A stretch of 64,000 bases of DNA from Cyanobium sp. AMD-g (GCF_024346395.1 NZ_JAGQCW010000001.1:744001-808000); one strand, 5' to 3'; shown: positions 44,181 through 59,185, counted from the stretch's first letter. Numbers and translations are program-made. The notes: a model not told the origin generated them from the sequence alone.

Positions 44181-45230
44181 TCACCAGAGGCCGCGGATCG
44201 GCGCGGGGGCCGGTTCGGGCTGGAAGCTCGGCGCAGGAGCCGGTGCGGGCTGCATGACGGGTTCCGGCTCCGGGGCGGGAGCGGCCGCCACTGGGCGGGC
44301 GCCGAAGCGGTAGCGGAAGCCGATCTTGCCACCGAAGCTGTTGAAGGCGTCGAAGGTCAGGTTCTCGGAGGAATAACCGCCAGCACCCTGATAGACGCCC
44401 TCAAGATAGACATCGGAGTTGTAGCTCATGGCGTAGCTGACGCCCACCTTGGCCTGCCAACCGAACAGCCCCTTGTTGACACTGTGGGTGGGGAAACCGT
44501 TGAGGCTGAAGCTCGGGGTGCTGAGGTTGGTGTACCCGATGCCACCGCCGATGTAGGGCGTCCAGCGGCTGTTGGTCTCGATGTCGTAGTAGAGGCTGGC
44601 CAGCACATCATTCTTGTTGATGATGCCGGAGACGTTGTTGGTGAAAGGAACGATGCCGAAGGCACCGAAGCCGATCGGATTGGCGGCACCAACGGCGTTC
44701 AGGCTGGCCCGGCTGTAGCCGTAGGTGAGCTCAGCGCGCAGGGCACCGAAGTCGTAGCCGACGCCGACGTCACCGGAGAAGCCACCGCCCAGGTCGAGCT
44801 TGGTGGAGTTGTTGTTGCCGAAGTTGTACAGCAGCGGCGTGAAGAAGGGTGAAACCAGCGTGCCGTTGCTGTTGACCGTCTGGTCGCTGGGGGTCTGGGC
44901 GCCGGCACCGATCGTGAGGTACCAGCCCTGGGCGGAATAGACCTCCTTCACCACCGGCTGGGGGTAGGTCTGGGCGATGAGGGTGGCCTCCGGCGCGGCC
45001 TGGGGAGCCAGGCTTGCGCTGGCGGCTGGAACGTCACTGGGGCCGGCTTCGGGGAGCCCGGGAAGGCCTGCCGACGTTTCCAAGGCCACAGGATTGGTCA
45101 CCGACTCGCTGCGCTCGCCAAGGGGCATGACCTCCGCCATGGCGGGGCCGCCCAGGAGAAGACCGCCCGTGGCAGCGATTCCCACACCGCGGAGAAAAGT
45201 CCGATTGAATGTCCTCGTGAAATAAGTCAT
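44181..45230 (-). CDS. Outer-membrane beta-barrel protein (OmpA/opacity-like)
   Basis: About 349 aa. A signal peptide (FLRGVGIAATGGLLLGGPAMA) is followed by a ~70-residue Ala/Pro-rich linker, then a beta-barrel with alternating strands: GWYLTIGAGAQTPSD, GDVGVGYDFGALRAELTYGYS, YIGGGIGYTNLS, WQAKVGVSYAMS and a last strand GGKIGFRYRFGA. The tail is a Pro/Ala/Glu-rich repeat (PEPEP, PAPAPAP). It sits between hypA and hypB, with its own AT-rich upstream region and a hairpin downstream, and has no known link to hydrogenase. ATG 45230 follows GAGAGGAA. Confidence 0.8.
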   Translation of the reverse strand: MTYFTRTFNRTFLRGVGIAATGGLLLGGPAMAEVMPLGERSESVTNPVALETSAGLPGLPEAGPSDVPAASASLAPQAAPEATLIAQTYPQPVVKEVYSAQGWYLTIGAGAQTPSDQTVNSNGTLVSPFFTPLLYNFGNNNSTKLDLGGGFSGDVGVGYDFGALRAELTYGYSRASLNAVGAANPIGFGAFGIVPFTNNVSGIINKNDVLASLYYDIETNSRWTPYIGGGIGYTNLSTPSFSLNGFPTHSVNKGLFGWQAKVGVSYAMSYNSDVYLEGVYQGAGGYSSENLTFDAFNSFGGKIGFRYRFGARPVAAAPAPEPEPVMQPAPAPAPSFQPEPAPAPIRGLW

Positions 45231-45520
45231 GGGGGTTGCGTTCCTCTCACTCATTTACAACTAAACCCGCGCCATGGTCGAAATGTCAGGCCATGGACAG
45301 CATCAGGCCTGGCACAGAGTGGTAAAAAAAGAAAACTTGCGCAAGATTTCAGTTCATGCTTAAAACTGGCTGCATGTTTGTCGCGAGCGCATAATAGAGC
45401 GGGTTTTTTCAGTCCTGATCGGGATAACCGCCGTCCTGGGTCTGGTGCCGTGGGGTCCGCGTCGGCCTGGTGCCCCGTCCCGGTGTGGCGGGGGTGGACG
45501 GCAGCCAGGCCCGCACTGGC
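45231..45520 (-). promoter_or_regulatory. Intergenic region upstream of the outer-membrane gene
   Basis: 290 bases between hypA and the porin-like gene, with no credible ORF. It has AT-rich patches, including a run of seven A (45324-45330). A perfect palindrome CTTGCGCAAG lies at 45336-45345. A TATTAT hexamer on the minus strand near 45391 could be a -10 box, but no good -35 is seen. The region separates the hox-hypA genes from the outer-membrane gene and the second hyp operon, so independent transcription is likely. Confidence 0.4.
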
Positions 45521-45862
45521 TCAGTCGAGCTCCAGGGAGGCCAGCTGCAGTTCCCGGCCCCGCAGCAGCTCCCGGCTGATGCGGCCGCAGCGCGGGCAGT
45601 CGCAGCAGCCATCGCGCGCCGGGAACGGCTGACCGCAGGCGGAGCAGAAACAGGCCGCGGGCACCGCCTCGATCACCAGCCGGGAGCCGGCGGCGATCGT
45701 GTCCGCCATCACCACCGTGTGGGCCAGTCGCAGGGCCTCGATCTCCACCCCCGCCAGGCTGCCCACCCGCAGGGTGATGGCGGTGATGCGGCGGGCCCCA
45801 TGCAGGGCGGCCTGCTCCAGGGCCTGCTGCCGCACGGCGTCCATCAGGCTGAGTTCATGCAA
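45521..45862 (-). CDS. hypA: Hydrogenase nickel-insertion protein HypA
   Basis: 113 aa. The start is TTG, giving (M)[13 protein letters not shown], so the nickel-binding His2 and Glu3 are kept. The zinc site is formed by CSAC and CPRC. VGSLAGVEIEALRLAH is typical of the family. It delivers Ni to HypB/HoxH. The TTG overlaps the hoxW stop by 8 bases; in-frame codons upstream lie in hoxW and are not HypA-like. It is separated from the other hyp genes by the outer-membrane gene. Confidence 0.93.
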   Translation of the reverse strand: MHELSLMDAVRQQALEQAALHGARRITAITLRVGSLAGVEIEALRLAHTVVMADTIAAGSRLVIEAVPAACFCSACGQPFPARDGCCDCPRCGRISRELLRGRELQLASLELD

Positions 45863-46286
45863 GCAACCAGCCCCGCAGCAGCCGGCGCGCCTGCGGCAAC
45901 TGGCGCCGCAGCTGCGGCGAGAAGTGATCGCCCCAGGAGAAATCGAAGGCCGGCACCAGCAGCTCATGGGCCGGCACACAGCGGTCGAACAGCTGCTCGG
46001 CCAGGGCCAGCAGCCGGGCGGGCGCCACCCGGTGCGTGTCCCGCTCCCAGCCGCCTGAGGCCACCAGGGGGCGCAGCAGGCAGCGGCTGCGGGGCGGCGC
46101 CAGCCAGGCGTCGACGATCAGCAGTCGCTCGGCGGCCGCCACCACCTCGGCCAGTTCGGGGGTGAGCTGGTGGCGCTGCAGCCCCAGACCCTCCACCAGG
46201 TGCCAGCCCACGCCGTCATCGCCCCGCAGGGGGTTGCCGATGCCAATCAGCAGCGCGCCTCCGGTGCCGACGCCGGCGCCGCTCAT
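45855..46286 (-). CDS. hoxW: Hydrogenase maturation endopeptidase HoxW
   Basis: 143 aa of the HyaD/HycI/HoxW family. It has [20 protein letters not shown], with metal-binding acids in GDD and in [10 protein letters not shown], plus a His in the C-terminal half. It trims the C-terminal peptide of HoxH once nickel is in place. It overlaps hoxH by four bases and hypA by eight. Confidence 0.92.
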
Positions 46287-47725
46287 CCCCGCAAACGCTC
46301 GGCCAGCACCGTGCCATCGGCGGCCAGCAGCTGCAGCCGCAGCGGCATCTGGCCGGCGGCGTGGGTGGAGCAGGAGAGGCAGGGGTCGAAGCAGCGGATG
46401 CCCGCCTCCACCCGGTTGAGCATCGCCTCGGGGATCTCGGCGCCGGCGGGCACCGGATCGGGGATGTACTCCCGGGCGATCTGGTGCACGGTGCGGTTCA
46501 TCGCCAGGTTGTTCTGGCCGGTGGCGATGATCAGGTTGACGCTGGTGAGCAGGCCGTCGTCATCCACCTTGTAGTGGTGAAAGAGGGTTCCCCGGGGCGC
46601 CTCGCTCACCCCCACCGCCTCGTTGCGGTTGAGCGAGGCGCGGGAACGGATCCGGCCGTGCATCAGCTCGGGGTCGGCCACCAGGATCTCGATCGCCTCC
46701 AGGCAGGCCACGATCTCCACCAGCCGGGCGTGGTGATACGCGAAGCTCGAGGTGACGGGCTGGCCGCTGCGCTGGCGCAGCTCCGCCAGCTCCCGGTCGG
46801 CCCAGGGGGTGCCGATGCCGTCGCAGACGTTGAGCCGGGCCAGGGGGCCCACCCGGTAGATCCCCTCCGGGTAGCCCAGGGGCTTGTAGTAGGGGAACTT
46901 GAGGTAGCTCCAGGGTTCCACCGCCTCGCCGAGGAACTCGGCGTAGTTGTCCTCGCTGAGCTGGTCGGCGACGATCGCCCCATTCGCATCGCGGAAGCGG
47001 ATGCGCCCCTCGATGTGCTCCCAGAGCCCCTTGGGGGTCACCAGGCCCATGAACAGGCTGGGGAAGTCGCCGAAGACCCGCTGCTCCCTCTGCAGGGGGC
47101 CATCCAGCAGTTTCTTGTAGAGCTCCAGCGCCAGGGTCACCGTGGCGCGGGCCTCCGGCAGGCGCCCCAGGATCCAGTCCCTGGCCTCCAGGCTCAGGGG
47201 GGAGCGCACGCCACCGGGCACGGCCCAGGCGGAGTGGATCTTGCGGCCGCCCAGGAGCTCCAGGATCTGCTGGCCGAACTGGCGCAGGCGGATGCCGGCC
47301 CGGGCCAGGTCGGGGTCGGCGGTCATCAGGCCGAAGACATTGCGCCTGGCCGGATCGCTCTCCCAGCCCAGCAGGAAATCGGGGCTGCTGAGGTGAAAGA
47401 AGGAGAGCGCATGCGACTGGGTGAGCTGGGCCAGGTTGAGCAGCCGCCGCAGCTTGTCGGCCGCCGGTGGGATCGCGATCGCCAGCAGCTTGTCGCCGGT
47501 CTTGGCGGCCGCCAGCAGGTGGCTCACCGGGCAGATGCCGCAGATGCGGGCGGTGATGCCGGCCATCTCGGTGAAGGGCCGGCCCTCGCAGAACTTCTCG
47601 AAGCCCCGGTACTCCACCACGTGGAAGCGGGTGTCGGTGAGGTGGCCGGCCCCATCGAGGTGGAGGGTGATCTTGGCGTGGCCCTCGATGCGGGTCACCG
47701 GATCGATGATGACGGTGCGGGTCAT
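46283..47725 (-). CDS. hoxH: Bidirectional [NiFe] hydrogenase large subunit HoxH
   Basis: 480 aa. The Ni-Fe ligands are Cys62 and Cys65 ([10 protein letters not shown]) and Cys449 and Cys452 ([13 protein letters not shown]). About 25 residues follow His455, the expected HoxW cleavage point, so the protein is made as a precursor. N-terminal [14 protein letters not shown] is diagnostic. With HoxY it forms the hydrogenase module of the NAD(P)/ferredoxin-linked cyanobacterial enzyme that makes or uses H2. Motifs are intact, so the enzyme is probably functional. Confidence 0.97.
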
Positions 47726-47735
47726 GGCGAGGTCC

Positions 47736-48314
47736 TCATCCGAAGCGCAGCATGGCGGCCCCCTCCATCACCGGCCGCTCGCCGGCCAGCAGGGGTGTGA
47801 TCGCCTCGCGGATGCGCTCGGCGGAGGGGGGGCAGCCCGGCAGGTACAGATCCACCGGGATCACCTCATGCAGGGGCAGCACCTTCGGCAGCAGCTCGGG
47901 AACGATGCCGGGGGCGAAGGGCAGCTGGCCCGTGGCATCGGCCAGCTCCAGATAGCCCCGCTCCAGCACCGCCTTGGCGCCGTCGTGGCCGCCATCGAGC
48001 AGATTGCGCAGTCCCGGCACGTTGGCCGTCACGGCGCAGTCGCCGAAGGAGATCACCAGGGCCGTGCGCGCGCGCACCTGCAGGGCCAGTTCGAGGTTGT
48101 CGACATTGGCCACCGCCCCCTCCACCAGGGCGATGTCGACGCTCTCGGGGTAGATCTTGACGTCGGTGCCGACCGGCGAGAAGACCACATCCACCTTCTC
48201 GGCCAGGTCGAAGAGGAACTCGTCGAGATCGAGGAACGACATGTGACAGCCGGAGCATCCCGCCAGCCAGACGGTGGCGAGGCGGAGCTTGGCGGCGGGC
48301 GGGGTGGCGGTCAT
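47736..48314 (-). CDS. hoxY: Bidirectional hydrogenase small subunit HoxY
   Basis: 192 aa. The proximal [4Fe-4S] cluster is bound by Cys20 and Cys23 ([12 protein letters not shown]) with later Cys in [13 protein letters not shown] and [12 protein letters not shown]. It carries one cluster, as in other short HoxY/NuoB-like subunits. It passes electrons between HoxH and HoxU/HoxF. ATG 48314 fits the family; in-frame codons above it lie in hoxU. It starts 11 bases after hoxU. Confidence 0.95.
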
Positions 48315-48325
48315 GGGGAGGGATG

Positions 48326-49045
48326 TCACTGGTTGTGCCAGCGGCGCTGGTCGCGGGCGCTGCGCAGCAGGGCGGGCAGGGTGGCGTCGGGCTGCTTCTC
48401 GGCGGTGGTGTCGCTGTTGCGGAACAGGGCGCCGGTGGGACACACCTCGACGCACTTGCCGCAGGAGGTGCAGGCCTGCACCTGGCCCCAGGGCTCATCG
48501 AGGCCGGCGACGATGTGGCACTGGCCGCCGCGGCTGCCGATGTCCCACACATGGGCCCCCTCGATCTCGTCGCACACCCGCACGCAGCGTGTGCAGAGGA
48601 TGCAGCGGTTGTGGTCGAGGGTGAACTGGGGGTGGGAGGCGTCCACCGACCGCTGGGGGTACTGGTAGGGGAAGCGGGAGTGGTCCATGCCCACGCTCAC
48701 GGCCATGTCCTGCAGTTCGCAGCGGGTGTTGGCCACGCAGACGGCGCAGATGTGGTTGCCCTCGGCGAAGAACAGCTCCACCGTCATGCGCCGGTACTCC
48801 CTGAGCCGGGGGGTGTGGGTGTGGACCACCATGCCCTCGGCGGCGGCGGTGCTGCAGGCGGGCAGCAGCTTGCCGGAGCCCTCCACCTCCACCAGGCACA
48901 GCCGGCAGGCCGACACCGGGGTGAGGCCTTCGAGGTGACACAGGGTGGGGACATTGGCCTCCGCCGCCCGGGTGGCCTCCAGCAGGCTGGCCCCCGCCGG
49001 CACCGCCACGTCCTGGCCATTCACCGTGAGAGTGACGACGCTCAT
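48326..49045 (-). CDS. hoxU: Hydrogenase diaphorase Fe-S subunit HoxU
   Basis: 239 aa, related to the N-terminus of NuoG. The [2Fe-2S] ligands are Cys36, Cys47, Cys50 and Cys64. A His/Cys-type cluster region, [17 protein letters not shown], follows, then two [4Fe-4S] motifs, [11 protein letters not shown] and [12 protein letters not shown]. It wires the HoxYH hydrogenase to HoxF and HoxE. It overlaps hoxF by four bases. Confidence 0.96.
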
Positions 49046-50640
49046 CGCTCCACCCCCACGGCGGCGACGCAGCCCGAAGGCTCCCGGCAGGCGGCCTCGT
49101 ATTCATGGCGGAACCAGCGCAGGGTGCTGAGCACCGGATTGGGGGCCGACTGGCCCAGGCCGCAGAGGCTGGTGACCTTGACCATCCGGCAGAGGGCATC
49201 GAGGCGCTCCATGTCGGCCGGGGTGGCCCGGCGCTCCACGAAGCGATCGAGCAGCTGGGCCAGCTGCACGGTGCCGGCGCGGCAGGGCACGCACTTGCCG
49301 CAGCTCTCGTTGACGCTGAAGCCCATGAAGTGGCGGGCCACCTCGGGCATCGAGGTGCTCTCCCCCATCACCACCATGCCGCCGGAGCCCATCATCGAGC
49401 CGAGCTCCAGCAGGCTTTCGTAGTCGACGGGGGTGTCCAGCCGTTCGGCCGGGATGCAGCCCCCCGAAGGCCCCCCCGTCTGCACCGCCTTGATCGGCGA
49501 GCCATCGGGCACACCGCCGCCGATCACCTCCACCACCGTGCGCAGGGGGGTGCCCATCGGCACCTCCACCAGGCCGGTGTTGACCACCGCCCCGGAGAGG
49601 GCGAACACCTTGGTGCCCTTGCTGTGCTCGGTGCCGATGGCGGCGTACCAGTCGCCGCCCTCGCGCAGGATCGCCGGCACGGCGGTGAAGGTCTCGACGT
49701 TGTTGATCAAGGTGGGCGCCCCCCAGAGGCCCGACTGGGCCGGGAAGGGGGGCCGGGGCTGGGGCATGCCGCGCTGGCCCTGGATCGAGAGCAGCAGGGC
49801 CGTCTCCTCACCACACACGTAGGCGCCGGCGCCCACCCGCACCTCCAGGCGCAGGTTGAAGCTGGTGCCGTCGATGTGGTTGCCCAGCAGGTGGCGGCTG
49901 CGGGCCTGCTGCAAAGCCAGCCGCAGCCGTTCGATCGCCAGGGGGTATTCCGCCCGCACATAAACGAAGCCCCGCTCGGCGCCGACGGCGTAGGCGGCGA
50001 GCGCCATCCCCTCAATCAGCCGGTGCGGGTCGCTTTCGAGCACGCTGCGGTCCATGAAGGCGCCCGGGTCCCCCTCATCGGCGTTGCAGACCACGTAGCG
50101 GGGGCCGGGGGGCTGCAGGGCCACCGTGTCCCACTTCAGACCCGTCGGGTAGCCGGCGCCGCCGCGACCGCGCAGACCGCTGCGGCGCACCTCGTCGCGC
50201 ACCTGCTCGGGGCTGAGCTCCTGCAGGACGCGGTGCAACTGGGCGTAGGTGCCGAAGGCGATCGCGTCGTCGATGGATTCGGGATTCACCTGGCCGCAGC
50301 CCTCGAGCACGACGGGCCGCTGCAGGGCAAAGAAGGGATCCTCGAGATCAAGGCGATGGGCCGCGAGGGCGGCGCCGCCGCTGGCAAGGCTGGCGGCGAT
50401 CAGATCCCCGGCGTGCTCGGGGGCCACGCCGCCGAAGAGCTGGCAGGGGCCGGGGCCGTCGCAGGCCACAAGCGGGCCGCTGCCACAGAGGCGCAGGCAA
50501 CCCACCGGTTTGATCATCAGCGCCTCAGCCGTGAGGCCGGCGGCATCCCGGGCGCCCTCCAGGGCGCTGCGCAGGGCCTGGCCGCCGGCGGAACGGCAAC
50601 CACTGGCGTCGCAGCAGCGCAGCTGCGGAGGTACGGGCAT
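49042..50640 (-). CDS. hoxF: Hydrogenase diaphorase flavoprotein HoxF
   Basis: 532 aa, NuoF-like. The N-terminal ~100 residues are a thioredoxin-like [2Fe-2S] domain (LRCCDASGC, VGCLRLCGSGPLVAC). The NADH/FMN core has GLRGRGGAGYPTGLKW and CNADEGDPGAFMDR. The [4Fe-4S] site is ESCGKCVPCRAGT with a later Cys in TSLCGLG. It exchanges electrons with NAD(P)H. It is the first gene of the hoxF-U-Y-H-W-hypA run. Unusually, hoxE is not next to it but 5.6 kb upstream. Confidence 0.96.
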   Translation of the reverse strand: MPVPPQLRCCDASGCRSAGGQALRSALEGARDAAGLTAEALMIKPVGCLRLCGSGPLVACDGPGPCQLFGGVAPEHAGDLIAASLASGGAALAAHRLDLEDPFFALQRPVVLEGCGQVNPESIDDAIAFGTYAQLHRVLQELSPEQVRDEVRRSGLRGRGGAGYPTGLKWDTVALQPPGPRYVVCNADEGDPGAFMDRSVLESDPHRLIEGMALAAYAVGAERGFVYVRAEYPLAIERLRLALQQARSRHLLGNHIDGTSFNLRLEVRVGAGAYVCGEETALLLSIQGQRGMPQPRPPFPAQSGLWGAPTLINNVETFTAVPAILREGGDWYAAIGTEHSKGTKVFALSGAVVNTGLVEVPMGTPLRTVVEVIGGGVPDGSPIKAVQTGGPSGGCIPAERLDTPVDYESLLELGSMMGSGGMVVMGESTSMPEVARHFMGFSVNESCGKCVPCRAGTVQLAQLLDRFVERRATPADMERLDALCRMVKVTSLCGLGQSAPNPVLSTLRWFRHEYEAACREPSGCVAAVGVER

Positions 50641-50693
50641 GGGAACCGGTGGCGCCTAAGGCCTTGCTAGCCAGGAAAGCGCAGGGGCGCCGC

Positions 50694-51731
50694 TCATGTC
50701 TGCCTGGCCAGCGCTTTGGCGATGCTGTCCACCGTGGTGGGCAGGGGGGTGTTGGCCGGGATCAGGCCATTGGCGTAGAGCACCTGGCGGATCTTCTCCA
50801 GCAGCGGAGGCAGGTTGTTCTGGGCCGGGTCCAGCAGTTCGTACTGCTCCTGGGGGCCGGGGAAGCGGATGCCGCGAAACGGCGGACGCGCGTTAGCAGG
50901 CTTGAGGCCGAGATATCTGGCCAACTCCTGGCGGACCACCGTCGGTCTCTGATTCTCCTCCAGCCGGACCGCCCGCCAGCCCTGAACGAGGGCCAGAACC
51001 GCGTCGGGATGACGACGGAGCAGCTCGGGATCCACGGCGAGCACATCGAGGATCTCGTAGGGGAGTTGCCGGCTGGTGAACAGCGTTTTCAGCGGCAGGG
51101 CGCGAAGCAGCTGCTCGCTCCGGGGTGGGTAGGTCACCACCGCCTGCACCTCCCCCCGTCGCAAGGCCGCTTCCCAGGAGGCGGCAGGCAGGAAACGCAG
51201 CTGGGACGGCTCAGGGGGCGGCAGTCCCACGGACTCGAACGCCCGCGACAGAAGGTACCGGGACAGGCTGCTGCGGTCGAGGGCGATCGGTTGGTCGGCC
51301 AGGCCCTTGAGGTCCTTCACTCCCTGGCGGGCCAGCACCTGATCGGCACCGCGGGATTCATCGATCACGTAGACGATCGCCGGACACCTGTCTGGAGCCA
51401 CCCCGCAGATGTTGACGACCTCAATTGAGGTGGTGGCGATCGCCTGGGCCGCCCCCGACATGTAGGCCTCCATCGTGGCCGCCGAATCGGCGAAGTTGCG
51501 CAGATCGAGGTTGAGGCGGCGGGGGTCGTACTGCTGGCGGTCCCTGGCCAGGGTGAAGTAGGCGTACCCGGGCCATGGGTGCACCGCCAGCACGAGACGG
51601 GGAGGTTGGCGTTGGCAGCCCATCGCCACCGCCAGCAGCAGGGACCCCAGCACGGCGAGGCCAGCGAGCCGCTGCTGCCAGCCCCTCCGGTGTCTGCCCG
51701 GAGAAAAGGCGATGCAGGCGGGAGCCTCCAC
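50694..51731 (-). CDS. NitT/TauT-like solute-binding lipoprotein, orphan
   Basis: About 345 aa from GTG 51731. A signal segment (LAVLGSLLLAVAMGC) ends at Cys39, a probable lipidation site. The mature part resembles periplasmic binding proteins of the NitT/TauT/ABC class: VLAVHPWPGYAYFTLARD, AAQAIATTSIEVVNICG and VKDLKGLADQPIALDR. No permease or ATPase is near. It is divergent from the PAS-GGDEF-EAL gene across only ~41 bases, so it may sense a ligand for that protein rather than import it. It lies between hoxF and hoxE on the hox strand. The start choice is uncertain. Confidence 0.75.
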   Translation of the reverse strand: MEAPACIAFSPGRHRRGWQQRLAGLAVLGSLLLAVAMGCQRQPPRLVLAVHPWPGYAYFTLARDRQQYDPRRLNLDLRNFADSAATMEAYMSGAAQAIATTSIEVVNICGVAPDRCPAIVYVIDESRGADQVLARQGVKDLKGLADQPIALDRSSLSRYLLSRAFESVGLPPPEPSQLRFLPAASWEAALRRGEVQAVVTYPPRSEQLLRALPLKTLFTSRQLPYEILDVLAVDPELLRRHPDAVLALVQGWRAVRLEENQRPTVVRQELARYLGLKPANARPPFRGIRFPGPQEQYELLDPAQNNLPPLLEKIRQVLYANGLIPANTPLPTTVDSIAKALARQT

Positions 51732-51772
51732 AGGTGGACCAGAAAATATGAAGAAAGTATGATGTAAGAGAT
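51732..51772. promoter_or_regulatory. Divergent promoter region between binding protein and c-di-GMP gene
   Basis: A gap of about 41 bases that is markedly AT-rich (AAAATATGAAGAAAGTATGATG), in contrast to the GC-rich genes on each side. It must carry the start signals for the plus-strand gene, while those of the minus-strand gene may extend into the other's 5' end. No clear -35/-10 pairs could be fixed. Confidence 0.35.
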
Positions 51773-54502
51773 GTGCAACTTTTGCCTTCCACGTCAAACG
51801 CCGCCCTCAAGCCCCTGCCCCCTGCCGACGAACGCAACGACCGGAAGGGGCGTCTTCTGGTCGTTGGTGTGGTGGCGGTCGGACTTCTCGGCACCACCCT
51901 GCTGACATGGGGCAGCTACACCCAGTGGAGACGGGAGCATGCCAACCGCGAGACGTCTGCGGCCGATCTGGTCTATGCCGCCCTGCAGCGGAAACTGGCC
52001 AACTCGGAATCCTTGGTGCGGGGTCTCGCCGGTCTGGAGCGGGCTTCTGAGGAGGTCACGCTGGCCGAGCTGCAGCGGTTCGTCAGTGCCGTGGAGGGCG
52101 GTGGGCCGGAACTGGAGGGCATCGGCACCCTGGGCTACGCCACGGCCGCATCCGGCAGGGCCACGATCCGCCTGATTGCACCGCTGAATCCAGGCAACCG
52201 CCGGTTGCTGGGCAGCGATCTGGGCAGCATGCTCCAGAACTCCGACCAGGTCCTGAGGCAGGACGGCATCTCGCAGGAAGGCTGGCTGTTCAGCGGACGT
52301 CCCGGCCCGGGGGAACCAGCCTTTCTGGTGCAGGTCCTTCCCATCGGCGGCAGCAACGACGCAGCAGGTGCGGGAACGGCGCCACCGTCAACCTGGGCCT
52401 TCGCCACCCTGCCGCTGCGGGATTTTCTGCTGGCGGCCCTGAACCACCCGTTGATGCGGCTGAAAGAGGAGGTGGACCTGCAGTTGTACAGCGGCCACCG
52501 TGCCGATCCCCGCCAGCTCCTTTACGACTCCCGCAACCGTCCAGGGGGCGAGGTTCTGCCCCATGCGCAGTCGCGGTCCTTCGAAACCGGTGGCCAGCAC
52601 TGGCTGTTACTGGTGCAGGTGCCCCTGCAGATGTCCGGCCCCTGGCTGCCCACCTGGGCAGTGGTGCTGCTGCTCGGGCTGACGAGCAGCGTTCTGGCCG
52701 GCCTGCTGAGCCAACAGTTTCTGCGAGGGAGTCGAGCGCTTGAGCGGGAGGAGCAGCGCCTGGGCGCGATGCGGCGCAACTGGGAGGCCAGCCTCGAATG
52801 GTTCCACCTCTTTCGCAAGGCCTTTTCGCTGCTCCAGGAAGGCGTGGTGATCACCGACAGAACGGGATCGATCCTGACCTGCAACGAGGCCTATTCCGCC
52901 GTCACCGGCTACGAGCTGGAGGAGCTGGTGGGCCACAACCCCCGCATGATGCACTCCGACTACCAGTCCAAGGCGTTCTATGCGGCGCTCTGGGAACAGC
53001 TGCTCGCCAGCGACCGTTGGGCGGGAGAGATCTGGAACCGCCGCTCCAATGGGGAGATTTACCCCGCCTGGATGCAGATGGGGGTGGTGCGGGACGCCTC
53101 CGGCGCCCCCAGCCACTTCGTCACGGCAATGGCCGACCTGACGCGACTGCGGGAGAAGGATCGGCAACTGGAGCACCTGGCCTATCACGACACCCTCACC
53201 AGGCTGCCCAACCTGCAGCTGGCCGAGCTGCGGCTGGGCCAGTTGTGCCAACAGACGCAACCGCTGGTGGTGATCTGGGTCGAATTGGACGGCGTCAAGC
53301 GGATCGAGGAAAGCTTCGGCCAGGCCAAGGGGGATCAGTTGCTGCAGGTGGTCGTCGAACGCTTGCACCGCTTCGTGGGGCTCACGGATGTCATCGCCCA
53401 GGTCGGCAGAAGTGAGTTCCTGATCGTGCATTCCCTGGATCCGGCCGATCCCACGGGTCTGCAGATGGCAGGCAGGATTCTGGCTGGAGTGGGCGATCCG
53501 ATGGGCCCGGGGCAGACGCTGGAACTGGCTCTTTCGGCCTGGGCGGGCGTGAGCTGCTTCCCCGAGGACTCCAGGGAGCCGGAAACCCTGCTGTTGTTCG
53601 CCTCCACGGCCCTGGGACAGGCCCGACGCCGTGGAGCGCAGACGATCCTGCGGTATTCCGCCGAGATGACGGTCCGCAGCCGCCACCGTCTGGCGATCGA
53701 AGCCCACCTGCAGCGGGCGATCGAAGCGGGCCAGCTCGAACTGATGTACCAGCCGCAGGTGGATGGCCAGGGGGGGCTGCTGGGGGCCGAGGCCCTGCTG
53801 CGTTGGAACAGTCCGAAGTTCGGTCCTGTTTCACCGCTGGAGTTCCTCCCGATCGCGGAAACCAGCGACCTGATCCACCGGATCGGCGCCTGGGTCCTGG
53901 AGGACGCCTGCCGCCAGTGGCAGGCGTGGGTGCAGGCTGGATTCACCCCTGGTCGGCTAGCGGTGAACCTCTCCAACCGACAATTCCAGGACCCGAAGCA
54001 GACCGTGCCCCACCTGGTGGCGGCGTGCCTGGCCCGCACGGGCCTTGGCCCCGAACGGCTGGAACTGGAGATCACCGAGAGTTGCCTGATGCCGGCCATT
54101 GGCACCCGCGAACAGCTTCTGGAACTGGAGGGGATGGGGGTGGAGCTGGCGATCGACGACTTCGGCACCGGTTTCTCTTCCCTCAGCACCATCCACAGGT
54201 ATCCGATCCACAAGTTGAAAATCGATCGCTCCTTTGTCGATGGTGTCGACACCAACCCCAACTCCCAGTCGATCGTGCGCGCCACCCTGGCGATGGCCCG
54301 GGGACTGGGGGTGAACACCCTGGCCGAGGGGGTGGAGCGCCCCGAGGAGCTGGACTTCCTGCTCCGCTGCGGCTGCCCGGCCTTCCAGGGCTACCTGTTC
54401 AGCCGCCCCCTGACTCCCATCCAGTTCGAAGCCCTGCTCCAGAAGGGAACGACCACAGTCCCGGTGAGCGGCGCTGAGCCTGCCGGGGTGCCCCTGCCAT
54501 GA
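51773..54502 (+). CDS. Membrane PAS-GGDEF-EAL protein, probable c-di-GMP phosphodiesterase
   Basis: 909 aa from GTG 51773. TM1 (~27-47) and TM2 (~291-313) enclose a ~240-residue periplasmic sensor of CHASE type. Then follow a PAS domain (~345-460; VVITDRTGSILTCNEAYSAVTGYE), a GGDEF domain whose motif is degenerate (GRSEF at ~544), and an EAL domain (~640-890) with intact GAEALLRW, ELEITESCLM and AIDDFGTGFSSLS. It probably breaks c-di-GMP rather than making it. Its stop overlaps the next membrane GGDEF gene (ATGA). The divergent neighbour is a binding lipoprotein. Confidence 0.9.
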   Translation: MQLLPSTSNAALKPLPPADERNDRKGRLLVVGVVAVGLLGTTLLTWGSYTQWRREHANRETSAADLVYAALQRKLANSESLVRGLAGLERASEEVTLAELQRFVSAVEGGGPELEGIGTLGYATAASGRATIRLIAPLNPGNRRLLGSDLGSMLQNSDQVLRQDGISQEGWLFSGRPGPGEPAFLVQVLPIGGSNDAAGAGTAPPSTWAFATLPLRDFLLAALNHPLMRLKEEVDLQLYSGHRADPRQLLYDSRNRPGGEVLPHAQSRSFETGGQHWLLLVQVPLQMSGPWLPTWAVVLLLGLTSSVLAGLLSQQFLRGSRALEREEQRLGAMRRNWEASLEWFHLFRKAFSLLQEGVVITDRTGSILTCNEAYSAVTGYELEELVGHNPRMMHSDYQSKAFYAALWEQLLASDRWAGEIWNRRSNGEIYPAWMQMGVVRDASGAPSHFVTAMADLTRLREKDRQLEHLAYHDTLTRLPNLQLAELRLGQLCQQTQPLVVIWVELDGVKRIEESFGQAKGDQLLQVVVERLHRFVGLTDVIAQVGRSEFLIVHSLDPADPTGLQMAGRILAGVGDPMGPGQTLELALSAWAGVSCFPEDSREPETLLLFASTALGQARRRGAQTILRYSAEMTVRSRHRLAIEAHLQRAIEAGQLELMYQPQVDGQGGLLGAEALLRWNSPKFGPVSPLEFLPIAETSDLIHRIGAWVLEDACRQWQAWVQAGFTPGRLAVNLSNRQFQDPKQTVPHLVAACLARTGLGPERLELEITESCLMPAIGTREQLLELEGMGVELAIDDFGTGFSSLSTIHRYPIHKLKIDRSFVDGVDTNPNSQSIVRATLAMARGLGVNTLAEGVERPEELDFLLRCGCPAFQGYLFSRPLTPIQFEALLQKGTTTVPVSGAEPAGVPLP

Positions 54503-56295
54503 GCTCCCCCAACGGCACCATGGGCCTGCACAGAGGTCTGCTGCTGTCCCTGCTGGCCGGGCTGGCCTTCCTTGGGAACGCCTGCCCGGTACCTTTGTGT
54601 TTCAGCATCCAGATCCTGCTCGGGTCGATCGCCTCCACCCTTGCCCTGCTCTGGCTGCGGGGCTGGTGGAACGTGGCGATTGCCGTCCTGGCGAGCCTCT
54701 ACACCTGGACGCTCTGGGGCCATCCCTGGGCCATCGTGATCTTCAGCGCCGAAGCCCTCTGGCTGGCGCTGTTCGTCAATCGCTTCAGCGGCCCGCCCGC
54801 GAACGATCTCAACGGCCGGATCATCCTGGCCGATGCCGTCTTCTGGCTCCTGGTGGGGACACCCCTGGTGTTCTTCTTCTACGGCTCGGTGCTGACCATC
54901 GATCCGGCCAATGTGGGCGTGGTGGTCGCCAAGCAGGCGGTCAACGGCGTAGCCAACACGGTGCTGGCCTTCCTGCTGTTCATGCTGCTGCAGGTGTGGC
55001 GCCAAAGACACCAGCAGGGGCTGCTGCTGCCCCTGCGGGGCCTGGTTTTTTCCGTGGTGCTGGCCTCGGTCGTCGTGCCTTCGCTCGTCGTTACCCTGCT
55101 CTCGTCCAGCCAACTGCAACGGGCCAGCCTGCAGGGGGTGCTCGAAAACCTGCAGACGGTCGCCGAATCCGCCGCCCGGATCGATCCGCTTCAACTCGGC
55201 GAGGCCACCCGGGGACTGCCGGCCAGCATCGGCTCGGCGGCCTTCCAGCTCATCGACCGCGAGGGCAACCGGATCAGTTCCAACCCCAGGTTGTTCCAGC
55301 GGCTGGAGACCCATTTCCTACCCACCCCGCCGCCGGACATCGTGGTGAGTGGGTTGCAGATTCTGGTTCCCAGGGAGCGGCGTCCTGCCCTCAAGGTCTG
55401 GGTCAATGGCTATTGGACCACCACCATCACCTCCCCCCGCTACCTGGTGCAGGTGGTGCAACCCGCCGCCCCGGTGGTGCTGAAACTGCAGCAGCAAAAC
55501 ACCAGCCTGCTGACCACGGTGCTCTGGGTGATGCTGCTGGGACTGCTGCTCAGCGAAATCTCGGCCAGGGCGATTCTGCGGCAGTTTCAGATCCTGCCCA
55601 GACCCGTTCTCGATGACACCGAGGGACCCGTTCTCTCCGCCAGCCAGGAGCACGAGGCCCCTGTATTCAGCACCAGCATCATCGAAGTCCAGGAACTGGC
55701 GAGCCGCCTCCAGGAACAAAACAGAAAAGTGCTGCGCCTGAGCCAGGAGTTCAGTGCCGCCAGCGACAGTCTCAAGCGGAGCATCGAGCGGGAGAAGCAA
55801 ATCATGACCACCGATCCCCTCACAGGAGCCCACAACCCCTCGGAACTGCAAACCAGGCTGGCGCAGGTGTGCACCAGGGCGATTGCCTGCTCTGTGCCCC
55901 TAAGCTGCTTGGCCTTTTCCGTGCAAGGGCTGCGGCCGATCAACACCGTGCAGGGAAGGCAGAAAGGGGATGAAATCCTGCACATGCTGATCGCCAGGGT
56001 GAAGCAGCTTCTGCACGTCAACGACGAACTGTTCCGCATCGGCGGCAGTAAATTCCTGTTGCTGCTCTGGGACCATCCCCTCGAATCGGCCCGCATCACA
56101 GCGGAACAGATCCGCAAGATTGTCAGTGAAACTGACGAGCCAATGGACGACGTCTCCTCCCAACAACTGGCGATGAGCGCCGGGGTGAGCCAGCTGGACT
56201 CCTCGGACGCCAGCGGCCTGGAAATGCTCTCAAGGGTGGAGCAGGCCCTGAACCAATCCCGCGAGCTGGGGACCAATCAGGTGGTGGTGCGCTGA
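54499..56295 (+). CDS. Multi-span membrane protein with degenerate GGDEF domain
   Basis: 598 aa. The first ~165 residues hold several membrane helices (MASE-like). A further TM pair flanks a ~140-residue extracytoplasmic region. After a coiled coil comes a GGDEF-fold domain with TTDPLTGAHNPSELQTRL, but the active-site loop reads GGSKF (~515) instead of GGDEF/GGEEF, so cyclase activity is doubtful. It may be a regulatory partner of the upstream protein, to which it is coupled by a four-base overlap. Its 3' end overlaps hoxE, on the other strand, by 19 bases. Confidence 0.83.
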   Translation: MSSPNGTMGLHRGLLLSLLAGLAFLGNACPVPLCFSIQILLGSIASTLALLWLRGWWNVAIAVLASLYTWTLWGHPWAIVIFSAEALWLALFVNRFSGPPANDLNGRIILADAVFWLLVGTPLVFFFYGSVLTIDPANVGVVVAKQAVNGVANTVLAFLLFMLLQVWRQRHQQGLLLPLRGLVFSVVLASVVVPSLVVTLLSSSQLQRASLQGVLENLQTVAESAARIDPLQLGEATRGLPASIGSAAFQLIDREGNRISSNPRLFQRLETHFLPTPPPDIVVSGLQILVPRERRPALKVWVNGYWTTTITSPRYLVQVVQPAAPVVLKLQQQNTSLLTTVLWVMLLGLLLSEISARAILRQFQILPRPVLDDTEGPVLSASQEHEAPVFSTSIIEVQELASRLQEQNRKVLRLSQEFSAASDSLKRSIEREKQIMTTDPLTGAHNPSELQTRLAQVCTRAIACSVPLSCLAFSVQGLRPINTVQGRQKGDEILHMLIARVKQLLHVNDELFRIGGSKFLLLLWDHPLESARITAEQIRKIVSETDEPMDDVSSQQLAMSAGVSQLDSSDASGLEMLSRVEQALNQSRELGTNQVVVR

Positions 56296-56801
56296 GGCAG
56301 GCCGGCGGCCGCCAGCCGGGCGTCCAGCGCCTCGCCCTGGTCCACCGGCAGGCGTGTGATCAGTTCCCCATCCACCACCAGCACCGGCGCCTGGCCGCAG
56401 GCCCCCAGGCAGCTGACGTGCTGCAGGGCCCAGACACCATCCCCGGACGGATCGTCGAGGCGCACCCCCAGCCGCTGCTCGATGCGGGCCGCCACCTGCG
56501 TCCCTCCCTTCACGTAGCAGGCGGTGCCGAGGCAGACGGCACAGCGATGGGCCGTGGGGGGCTCCAGCCGGAACAGGTGGTAGAAGCTGGCCACGCCGTG
56601 GACACGGCTCAGCGGCAGGCCCATCCCGGTGGCCACCTGCCGCAGGGACGCCGGAGCCAGATAGCCGTGCAACTCCTGCACCTGATGCAGCACCTCAATC
56701 AGGGCGTCGGGGCGGGCGCCGTGGCGACGGATCACCTGGGCGATGCGCGGGTCGGCGCTGGCGGCGGTCGGGTCGGCGCTGGCGGCGGTCGGGGGGGTCA
56801 T
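56277..56801 (-). CDS. hoxE: Bidirectional hydrogenase subunit HoxE
   Basis: 174 aa, NuoE-like. The core has LIEVLHQVQELHGYLAP, GVASFYHLF and the [2Fe-2S] ligands in CLGTACYVKGG and CLGACGQAP. It belongs to the HoxEFU diaphorase and may contact ferredoxin or the membrane. The N-terminus carries a duplicated TAASADP heptad. ATG 56801 follows GGGAG; in-frame codons upstream are in the intergenic region. It is split from hoxF by three genes, which is not the usual arrangement. Confidence 0.95.
   Translation of the reverse strand: MTPPTAASADPTAASADPRIAQVIRRHGARPDALIEVLHQVQELHGYLAPASLRQVATGMGLPLSRVHGVASFYHLFRLEPPTAHRCAVCLGTACYVKGGTQVAARIEQRLGVRLDDPSGDGVWALQHVSCLGACGQAPVLVVDGELITRLPVDQGEALDARLAAAGLPQRTTT
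56751..56792 (-). repeat. hoxE: Two-copy 21-base tandem repeat in hoxE
   Basis: The unit 56751-56771 is repeated exactly at 56772-56792, in frame, and encodes the duplicated heptad near the HoxE N-terminus. A recent slippage duplication is the simplest reading. It does not disturb the Fe-S domain. Confidence 0.9.
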
Positions 56802-56905
56802 GCCGTTGTTCTCCCACCCACCGTTTCTAGCCAGCCTCGGGGCCATGGTCAGCGCGCCGCGCCATTGCAGCAGGCAGGACGGCAGACCCCGTGCGGAGAA
56901 ATACC

Positions 56906-56932
56906 TATACTCCTTTGGGTGTAGGCACCTAA
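56906..56932 (+). promoter_or_regulatory. Candidate -10 box and hairpin ahead of a small secreted peptide
   Basis: TATACT (56906-56911) looks like a -10 element; no convincing -35 lies 16-18 bases upstream. Just after it, TTGGGTG (56915-56921) can pair with CACCTAA (56926-56932) around a TAGG loop, with one G-T pair. The hairpin ends 3 bases before the peptide's ATG and could hide its ribosome-binding site. The rest of the 56802-57118 gap holds the hoxE leader and the peptide. Confidence 0.3.
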
Positions 56933-56935
56933 GCC

Positions 56936-57079
56936 ATGAACCTCCTGTCAAAGGCTCAGCTGCCGGCAGCATTGTTGAGTTTTGTACTGCTGTTCGCCTC
57001 CTCAGCCCTGGCGTGTGAGAAGCACATCACCGGCCATCAGAGGAGTTCAGACACCAATGCGGAAGGTTTCACGCGATAA
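56936..57079 (+). CDS. Predicted small secreted peptide (47 aa)
   Basis: An ATG-started frame: MNLLSKAQLPAALLSFVLLF begins a good signal peptide ending SSALA, then a short mature part, CEKHITGHQRSSDTNAEGFTR split across the rest. Cys27 right after Ala could allow lipid attachment, though the box is imperfect. It precedes the PAS-GGDEF gene by 39 bases on the same strand and could be its partner or upstream ORF. No homologue is recognised. Short length makes this tentative. Confidence 0.4.
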   Translation: MNLLSKAQLPAALLSFVLLFASSALACEKHITGHQRSSDTNAEGFTR

Positions 57080-57118
57080 CCAACTCCCCAAACCACTGGA
57101 ACTGGCGGCAAGGGCAGC

Positions 57119-59185
57119 TTGGCATCAGCCGACCCATTCGTTAGTCAGAATAATGTGAGTCCTCCCCAACGTCGATATAATCCAAAACTGGTCGTCTCGG
57201 CTCTTGCCGTGGTCGGCTTTTTTCTTGTGGATCTGGCCCTCACAAGAACCCTGGGCATCACCCCCTTTCAGTACTACTGGATCCCCGTGGTGCTGGCGGC
57301 ATCCTTCGCCACGCCCCGCCAGGTGGGCTGGTTCACGAGTGTGGCGATCGTTCTGACCGTCGTCTGGTCGCTTCAGGCTCCCCAGGCCACAACGCTGGAG
57401 CTGATGCTGCGGTTGGCCGTGCTGGTCGGGATGGCCTGGGTGTCGATGCATCTGGCCCGTGAACTGCAGGCCAAGGAACGCGGCAACCGGGAGCTCAAGA
57501 AGCACTACCAGCTGCTGGCCGAAAACGCCCCGGATGTGGTCCTCAGCAGCGACCGGGACGGGCGGATCGCCTGGGTCTCCCCATCGGTGCGGCAGCTGCT
57601 GGGCCATGACGCCCGCCAACTCCAGGGCCAGACCATCGACACCCTGGTGCTGGAGGGGGACCGGGGCCGGCTGGATGAGGCCATCGGCCGTGTCCTTCAG
57701 GGGAGCAACAGCGGCTGCGAGCTGCGCTTCCGCACCGCCGACGCTGGCAGCCGCTGGGTCGGCATGGCCCTGCGGCCTGTCCTCGACAGCGGTGGAGAGG
57801 TGCTGGGCGTGGTCGGCAGCTGGCGCGACATCCAGGGGGAGGTGGAGGCACGCCAGGCCGAGGAGCGCACCAAGGCGGCCCTGGCGGCCTCGGAGGAGCG
57901 GCTGCGCCTCACGCTGGAGAACGCTTCGACCGGCATCGCCCTGCTGGACGCCAGCGGCCATTTCCTCTCCATCAACCCCACCGGCCGCAGCCTGCTCGAC
58001 CGCGACGGCGCTGGACTGGAGGGCCTCACCTGGCAGGCGTTCTCACCGGCCGCCGACCAGGCCAGCGAAGCACCACTGATGCAGGAACTGGTCAGCGGCC
58101 AGCGCTCCTGCTATCGCTTGCGCAAGCGCATCCAGCAGAGGGGCGTGGGCCCCATCTGGGTCGATTGCAGTGTGTCCTGCTCGCGCCATGCCGATGGCAC
58201 CACGGCCTTCGTGATCGCCCAGTTCAACGACGTCACCGAGATGGTTCAGGCGGAAGCGGCCCTGGCCACCTCGGAGGAGCGCTACCGGCTGCTGGCGGAG
58301 AACTCCAGCGATGTGGTGCTGCTGATCAAGGACGAGCTGATCAGCTGGATCTCCCCGTCGCTCACCTGCATGCTGGGTTGGCAGCCGGGAGACTGGATCG
58401 GCCATCCCCTCAGCCGGTTCATCCCCGCCGACGAGCAACCGGCCCTGGAGCGCGATCTGCACGCCCTCGCCGCCGGCCGGACGGTGGTCAGCAGGCTGCA
58501 GGCCCTGGCCCACGACCACAGCCAACGCTGGGTCGAACTGCATGCCAGTCCCTACAGAGATCTGGATGGCCGCCTCAATGGCATCGTCGGATCCTTCCGG
58601 ACGGTGGATCAGGAGGTGGCCGCCGAAAGGGAGCTGGCCCGCCGTGCCTGCACCGACGAACTCACCGGGCTGGTGAACCGCCACGAGGCATTGGAGCAGA
58701 TCACCGCCATCGCCGGCCGTGTGGTGCGCCAGGGCCATGCCACCGCCGTGTTGTTCTGCGATCTCGATAACTTCAAGGAGATCAACGACACCTTCGGTCA
58801 CCTGCCTGGAGACGAACTGCTCAGGGTCGTGGCCACGAGAATCCGCCTGGGCCTGCGCAGCGGCGACATGGCCGCCCGCATCGGTGGCGATGAGTTGATG
58901 GTGGTGCTGCAGGGGGTGCGCAGCCTGGGCGACGCGATGGCCATCGCCGAAAAGCTGCGTCGGGCCGTGGCCGAACCGATCTCCACCAGTGCGGGCTTCC
59001 TGTCGATCACCCTGAGCATCGGCGTCACCATGGTCGAACCTGGCGAAGACTCCGACCAGATCATCTCCAGGGCCGACCGTGCCATGTACCGGGCCAAACA
59101 GACCGGGCGCAACCAGGTGCTGGCCTTCAGCGACCAGAATGATACGTTCGAAGGTCGGAGTGCCAGCTGGCAGCCCGCGCTCTGA
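57119..59185 (+). CDS. Membrane diguanylate cyclase with three PAS domains
   Basis: 688 aa from TTG 57119. Two to four N-terminal helices (~20-115) are followed by three PAS domains (about 130-245, 258-375, 385-500) and a GGDEF domain (~515-670) with TDELTGLVNRHEAL, DLDNFKEINDTFGHLPGD and an intact RIGGDELMV at ~587-595. This is probably an active c-di-GMP synthase. The PAS domains suggest redox, light or small-molecule input, but no cofactor residues are diagnostic. TTG is used because no in-frame ATG precedes the first helix. Confidence 0.88.
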   Translation: MASADPFVSQNNVSPPQRRYNPKLVVSALAVVGFFLVDLALTRTLGITPFQYYWIPVVLAASFATPRQVGWFTSVAIVLTVVWSLQAPQATTLELMLRLAVLVGMAWVSMHLARELQAKERGNRELKKHYQLLAENAPDVVLSSDRDGRIAWVSPSVRQLLGHDARQLQGQTIDTLVLEGDRGRLDEAIGRVLQGSNSGCELRFRTADAGSRWVGMALRPVLDSGGEVLGVVGSWRDIQGEVEARQAEERTKAALAASEERLRLTLENASTGIALLDASGHFLSINPTGRSLLDRDGAGLEGLTWQAFSPAADQASEAPLMQELVSGQRSCYRLRKRIQQRGVGPIWVDCSVSCSRHADGTTAFVIAQFNDVTEMVQAEAALATSEERYRLLAENSSDVVLLIKDELISWISPSLTCMLGWQPGDWIGHPLSRFIPADEQPALERDLHALAAGRTVVSRLQALAHDHSQRWVELHASPYRDLDGRLNGIVGSFRTVDQEVAAERELARRACTDELTGLVNRHEALEQITAIAGRVVRQGHATAVLFCDLDNFKEINDTFGHLPGDELLRVVATRIRLGLRSGDMAARIGGDELMVVLQGVRSLGDAMAIAEKLRRAVAEPISTSAGFLSITLSIGVTMVEPGEDSDQIISRADRAMYRAKQTGRNQVLAFSDQNDTFEGRSASWQPAL

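Follow-up and report, generated by a model that had tools for sequence, protein, structure and literature searches.

The stretch of Cyanobium sp. AMD-g analysed here (NZ_JAGQCW010000001.1:744001-808000, 64,000 nucleotides, hereafter the window) contains a hox hydrogenase locus in which hoxE is separated from hoxF by three genes, encoding an orphan solute-binding lipoprotein (SBP), a membrane protein with PAS, GGDEF and EAL domains (PGE), and a polytopic membrane GGDEF protein (DGCm). This insert is probably an autonomous, portable sensory module in which the SBP would gate cyclic di-GMP (c-di-GMP) signaling, and which entered the hoxE-hoxF junction a single time, in an ancestral member of one group of picocyanobacteria, and is dispensable for Hox. 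Hitch-hiking, rather than regulation of the hydrogenase, is the most likely role of the insert, its address within hox being incidental, because it was independently damaged or lost in at least five, probably six, of 15 genomes while the hydrogenase was kept.

Hox loci with hoxE were retrieved from the family and the genus, and each was mapped by tblastn with the proteins of the window. The insert was confined to one group of 15 Cyanobium/Aphanothece-type genomes, and none of the other mapped hoxE-hoxF junctions carried it. The three genes were whole, in the same order and orientation and at the same junction, in eight of the 15 (the window, G198, G132, G175, G210, G208, G204, and G202). An insert limited to a single genome, or produced by misassembly, was rejected, as the same junction was found in many assemblies, and the insert is not a product of chance, because eight genomes share its genes, order, orientation, and junction and the ratios of nonsynonymous to synonymous substitution (dN/dS) of its genes are about 0.36-0.45. 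G148 also carries all three genes; its DGCm is cut short by a late stop, and its SBP is found on a different contig. In the remaining genomes, the SBP has a frameshift (G218), all three genes are broken (G201), or only eroded ends of the SBP and DGCm remain (G005 and G090); contig ends do not explain the remnant in G090, because this is a single-contig (complete) genome. In G113 and G209 only scars were found, with the 3' tail of DGCm just beyond the hoxE stop fused to the 3' tail of the SBP, and therefore a former insert was deleted rather than primarily absent. The scars L120 and L037 join both ends of the insert. In L120 the join spans a short stretch of similarity (GAGAGCAT/GACAGCAT), which suggests that this scar arose by deletion between short repeats. 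In the genomes with losses, hoxE to hoxH were matched at full length. Within the group, retention of Hox is thus not always accompanied by retention of the module, which is broken or lost in six of the 15 with hox intact. In a HoxEFUYH tree, the 15 genomes formed one clade in which intact and lost states were interleaved, and therefore one gain and at least five separate inactivations, six with G218, account for the distribution.

A scan of public genomes identified as group members Cyanobium spp., Aphanothece saxicola, A. cf. minutissima, and Synechococcus sp. BO 8801, as well as Synechococcus sp. CS-1332 and Microcystis elabens FACHB-917. In the sister pair G203 and G207, hoxE and hoxF are about 40 nt apart without the insert. 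The more distant G187 has a 0.9-kb gap between hoxE and hoxF that holds an unrelated gene of 224 amino acids on the opposite strand (L058:5521-6195), and the junction tolerates other genes. The protein from this gene is of the secreted type, signal-peptide-like and rich in Trp and Tyr. An earlier note on this DNA, made from the sequence of the window, had called for hox loci to be compared across relatives and took random genes at this site as a sign against a functional link; the unrelated gene in G187 bears this out in part.

Modules of the same kind were also found away from hox. In G212, G203, G207, and G211, an SBP of 42-46% identity is encoded divergently from a PGE of 40-41% identity at a separate locus, and in G212 this pair adjoins clpC, not hox. 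In other genera, genes for DGCm homologs with 35-38% identity are transcribed divergently from tandem SBP genes, which precede a gene for a GGDEF protein and, in two cases, one for an EAL protein beyond it, and an SBP homolog was located nearby on the same contig for 10 of 13 DGCm homologs from outside the group (at least 37% identity). In a larger module from another genus (L107:4121-11265), the genes for a GAF-GGDEF-EAL protein and DGCm are transcribed away from those for two SBPs and a GGDEF protein. The orphan SBP gene adjoins the membrane GGDEF-EAL gene in the window and the orthologous loci. In Aquaspirillum serpens, the neighbor of a related orphan SBP is a HAMP-PAS-GGDEF-EAL gene. Judging from gene order, these SBPs keep to the neighborhood of membrane sensors, and the combination of an NMT1-class SBP with a CHASE-PAS-GGDEF-EAL protein and/or a polytopic GGDEF protein can be recognized as a recurring picocyanobacterial module. 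In G204, an orphan SBP (29% identical) is encoded directly upstream of a HAMP-GAF-histidine kinase-receiver (hybrid kinase) gene (L117:7139-10798).

The first gene was correctly described in the earlier note as an orphan binding lipoprotein. Its product matched the profiles NMT1_2 of Pfam (7.6e-6) and ABC_peri_uca (4.8e-20) and SsuA (2e-11) of NCBIfam, all NCBIfam scores being far under the equivalog cut-offs, and its profile also matched the taurine-binding protein 6ssy (4.9e-7). Since the cysteine of the lipobox (...LLLAVAMGC) falls near residue 58, the true start is probably downstream of the listed TTG. The cysteines of the SBP are invariant across intact copies. Apparent SBP fusions in G230, G222, and G102, with long open frames over the SBP, were rejected as spurious upstream reading frames.

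The label PAS-GGDEF-EAL given to the second protein in the earlier note holds for the domains it names, but the N-terminal CHASE domain and the degeneracy of the GGDEF motif had been missed. The assignment of the N-terminus as CHASE draws on an AlphaFold model, whose structural matches were PcrK (1.5e-7), AHK4 (4.9e-5), and LuxQ (7.3e-5), including LuxP-bound LuxQ (2hj9), and on matches of relatives to the Pfam CHASE hidden Markov model (HMM), which were above the cut-off for L103/L104 (7e-11 and 2e-12) and stood at 0.0056 for the orthologue L033. The GGDEF motif is GRSEF in the window and GRSEF or GRNEF among the copies where it was matched, and all of the EAL motifs are present (EAL, DDFGTG, KID, AEGVE, and QG), with the catalytic positions invariant in intact copies.

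The degenerate GGDEF of the third protein, also reported in the earlier note, was found as GGSKF in the window and as GGSEF or GGNEF in most orthologues, and DGCm thus lacks the GG(D/E)EF required of an active diguanylate cyclase (DGC); its distant homologs L107 and L108 have a canonical GGDEF. Because the module combines two degenerate GGDEF sites with a complete EAL site, its predicted output is most likely of the phosphodiesterase (PDE) type. The N-terminal part of DGCm (54499-55788), which is found in a single copy in the genome, is a membrane domain with no Pfam match, and a structural search gave only weak results (best E 0.015; RibU E 0.03, target TM 0.68). The membrane part weakly resembles the ECF S-components RibU/ThiT, which we regard as a lead only.

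We propose, conditionally, the following mode of action. The lipoprotein would capture a small molecule in the periplasm and dock on the CHASE domain of the neighboring PGE, much as LuxP binds LuxQ and NspS binds MbaA; this contact would alter the phosphodiesterase activity of the EAL domain and hence the c-di-GMP level; and DGCm, whose GGDEF lacks the catalytic acidic residue, might act as a second sensor or a nucleotide-binding partner. General c-di-GMP outputs exist, as the genome encodes six PilZ proteins, of which one is part of a BcsA-like synthase. The output of the module would most likely be such ordinary targets (PilZ proteins and the BcsA-like cellulose synthase) and not the hydrogenase.

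It has been reported for NspS-MbaA of Vibrio cholerae and Sinorhizobium that an orphan periplasmic SBP acts with a membrane GGDEF-EAL protein, the liganded SBP setting the DGC/PDE balance and thereby c-di-GMP (PMC8967002, PMC9993111). The insert likewise has an orphan SBP gene beside a membrane GGDEF-EAL gene. NspS is a PotD-like polyamine SBP, whereas the SBP of the insert belongs to the NMT1/SsuA class by its Pfam, NCBIfam, and PDB matches and not to the polyamine PotD/SBP_bac class. Furthermore, PGE does not have the intact GGDEF and EAL pair of that family, since its GGDEF is GRSEF and only its EAL is complete, and the insert has in addition a CHASE sensor domain and a second membrane GGDEF protein. 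By analogy, the best reading is that the module would work like NspS-MbaA although it departs from that family in two features, the polyamine-class SBP and the intact GGDEF. LuxP-LuxQ of Vibrio provides a solved precedent for docking of an SBP on the fold of the CHASE model, which matches the periplasmic domain of LuxQ; LuxQ is a histidine kinase, whereas the output of the insert would be c-di-GMP turnover. PcrK and AHK4, the best structural matches of the sensor domain (11-17% identity), are histidine kinases that bind cytokinin-type ligands directly. A literature search returned no papers on an NMT1-class SBP with GGDEF.

Several observations weigh against an autonomous module that is dispensable for Hox. 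Some of the decays are in draft genomes, and the single frameshift of G218, a metagenome-assembled genome, may be a sequencing error. The SBP-CHASE contact is proposed from gene adjacency and fold analogy, the PGE of the window matched the CHASE HMM weakly (E 0.08), and the model of its N-terminal domain reached moderate confidence (pLDDT 73). Retention at one place and in one orientation in eight genomes would also be expected of a useful location.

One of the two options offered in the earlier note is that the module brought ligand or c-di-GMP sensing to Hox. In this case, the minus-strand promoter of the SBP would read through 53 nt into hoxFUYHW, and the hydrogenase would be expressed together with the sensor. 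In every intact copy the SBP shares its strand with hoxF and is separated from it by a short gap, the orientation of the insert is kept throughout the group, and a divergent promoter-like site, sigma-70-like and the sole match in 50400-57300 (0.4 expected), has a TATNATG core that is kept in most intact orthologues, except for G132 and G218. Read-through from the SBP to hoxF is therefore possible. Nevertheless, we consider this coupling unlikely. The decays and losses in which Hox was kept include some that delete the whole SBP promoter region, and homologous modules occur elsewhere without hox nearby. The motif of the hoxF leader (GGCTAGCAA...GGTTCC..ATGCCCGT) is also present in the insert-free G211, and a similar one in G212, which indicates that the leader is older than the insertion, and hoxF therefore probably had no need of the insert for its start signals. 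In addition, a small open-access search found no paper tying c-di-GMP to cyanobacterial hox; only an Azotobacter genome paper matched. A regulator specific to Hox was rejected on the loss pattern across the group. It is likewise unlikely that, in genomes with an intact insert, hoxFUYHW is under the minus-strand SBP promoter and so tied to the ligand/c-di-GMP module while hoxE has its own promoter; if so, one enzyme complex would be under split, ligand-tuned control, switched on and off repeatedly within one genus. The claim that the insert brought sensing to the hydrogenase is accordingly unsupported, and the other option of the earlier note, a neutral insertion, is favored by the loss pattern and by the modules away from hox.

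Neutrality could go further, the module being non-functional even where intact and in the course of being lost. Median pairwise dN/dS values (Nei-Gojobori type estimate) were 0.36 for PGE, 0.37 for the SBP, and 0.45 for DGCm, in comparison to 0.10 for hoxH, 0.16 for hoxU and hoxF, 0.22 for hoxE, and 0.26 for the neighboring GGDEF gene. Intact copies are thus under purifying selection, the weakest among the compared genes and weaker than that on hox. This weakness (up to about 0.5 in G132/G218), the many losses, and a degenerate GGDEF that has changed further in the window are what debris would show. However, dN/dS is clearly below 1, eight complete copies have frames open over about 5.6 kb, and the EAL catalytic residues and the SBP cysteines do not vary among intact copies, so that we regard debris as improbable. 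Least probable of all, and in our view very much so, is that the SBP is a leftover component of a transporter of the urea, sulfonate, or taurine type and that the GGDEF/EAL genes arrived separately. The best profile matches of the SBP are indeed to transporter SBPs, and no permease or ATPase was seen among the surrounding open reading frames (ORFs), but those scores fall well short of the transporter equivalog cut-offs, and related SBPs repeatedly have GGDEF/EAL or kinase genes as adjoining or divergent neighbors, with no transporter genes among the inspected ORFs. Carriage by a mobile element was also rejected, since the insert has no visible transposase ORF and its ends share no direct or inverted k-mer of at least 8 bases.

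With the hitch-hiking module as the preferred reading, the locus indicates that a 5.6-kb insert can enter between the genes for two subunits of an enzyme and be lost again with the enzyme genes persisting, which is a warning against inferring function from gene address. The 15 genomes also provide a natural gain-and-loss series for the effect of the insert on hox expression. According to a survey of cyanobacterial hox loci, gene order is fluid and falls into seven groups, hoxE being with hoxF in six of the seven; the exception is Fischerella PCC 9605, in which hoxE is elsewhere in the genome (PMC5186783). None of the seven groups as described there has sensory genes inserted at the hoxE-hoxF junction, and such an insertion seems to be unreported in that survey.

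Table 1. Coordinates of the insert and neighboring features in the window
Feature	Position	Strand	State
hoxU, hoxY, hoxH, hoxW; cluster continues downstream of hoxF	45855-49045	-	
hoxF, diaphorase subunit; first gene downstream of the insert	49042-50640	-	full-length
Insert gene 1, orphan NMT1/SsuA/TauA-class solute-binding lipoprotein (SBP)	50694-51797	-	full-length
Promoter-like site TGGACC-17-TATGAT, divergent SBP/PGE region	51735-51763	+	
Insert gene 2, membrane protein with predicted CHASE, PAS, GGDEF (degenerate, GRSEF), and EAL (complete) (PGE)	51773-54502	+	full-length
Insert gene 3, polytopic membrane GGDEF protein with small periplasmic alpha/beta domain and degenerate GGDEF (GGSKF) (DGCm)	54499-56295	+	
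hoxE, diaphorase subunit; parted from hoxF by the insert	56277-56801	-	full-length
PAS-PAS-PAS-GGDEF neighbor, outside the insert; intact GGDEL motif	57119-59185	+	
Outer-membrane beta-barrel-type protein, between hypA and hypB	44181-45254	-	

The hydrogenase locus is compact and lies on the minus strand, in the order hoxE, the insert, hoxF, hoxU, hoxY, hoxH, hoxW, and hypA, followed by the outer-membrane-type protein, hypB, hypF, a pyruvate:ferredoxin oxidoreductase gene (nifJ type), a dihydroorotate-dehydrogenase-like gene, hypD, and hypE; the names of the hyp genes and of the later genes were read from translations. The arrangement of the five genes from hoxE to hoxF, with PGE and DGCm on the opposite strand, is as the earlier note had described it, and all five are full-length. 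DGCm shares 4 nt with PGE and runs antisense over the 3' end of hoxE with an overlap of 19 nt, the SBP gene stops 53 nt short of hoxF, and the G+C content of the insert (about 0.61-0.68) is slightly below that of hox (about 0.70-0.73). The Hox subunits keep their ligand motifs, as the note had also claimed; DPCLSCSTH was seen by eye in the translations, as were CLGTAC and CLGAC in HoxE and ESCGKCVPC in HoxF. The three-PAS GGDEF protein is a longer-standing signaling neighbor of hox, which was beside hoxE before the insertion; its gene is shared upstream in the insert-free G203 and G207, and it is truncated or has parts missing in G201, G209, and G218. The beta-barrel-type protein is kept at the same position between hypA and hypB in the insert group and in G203.

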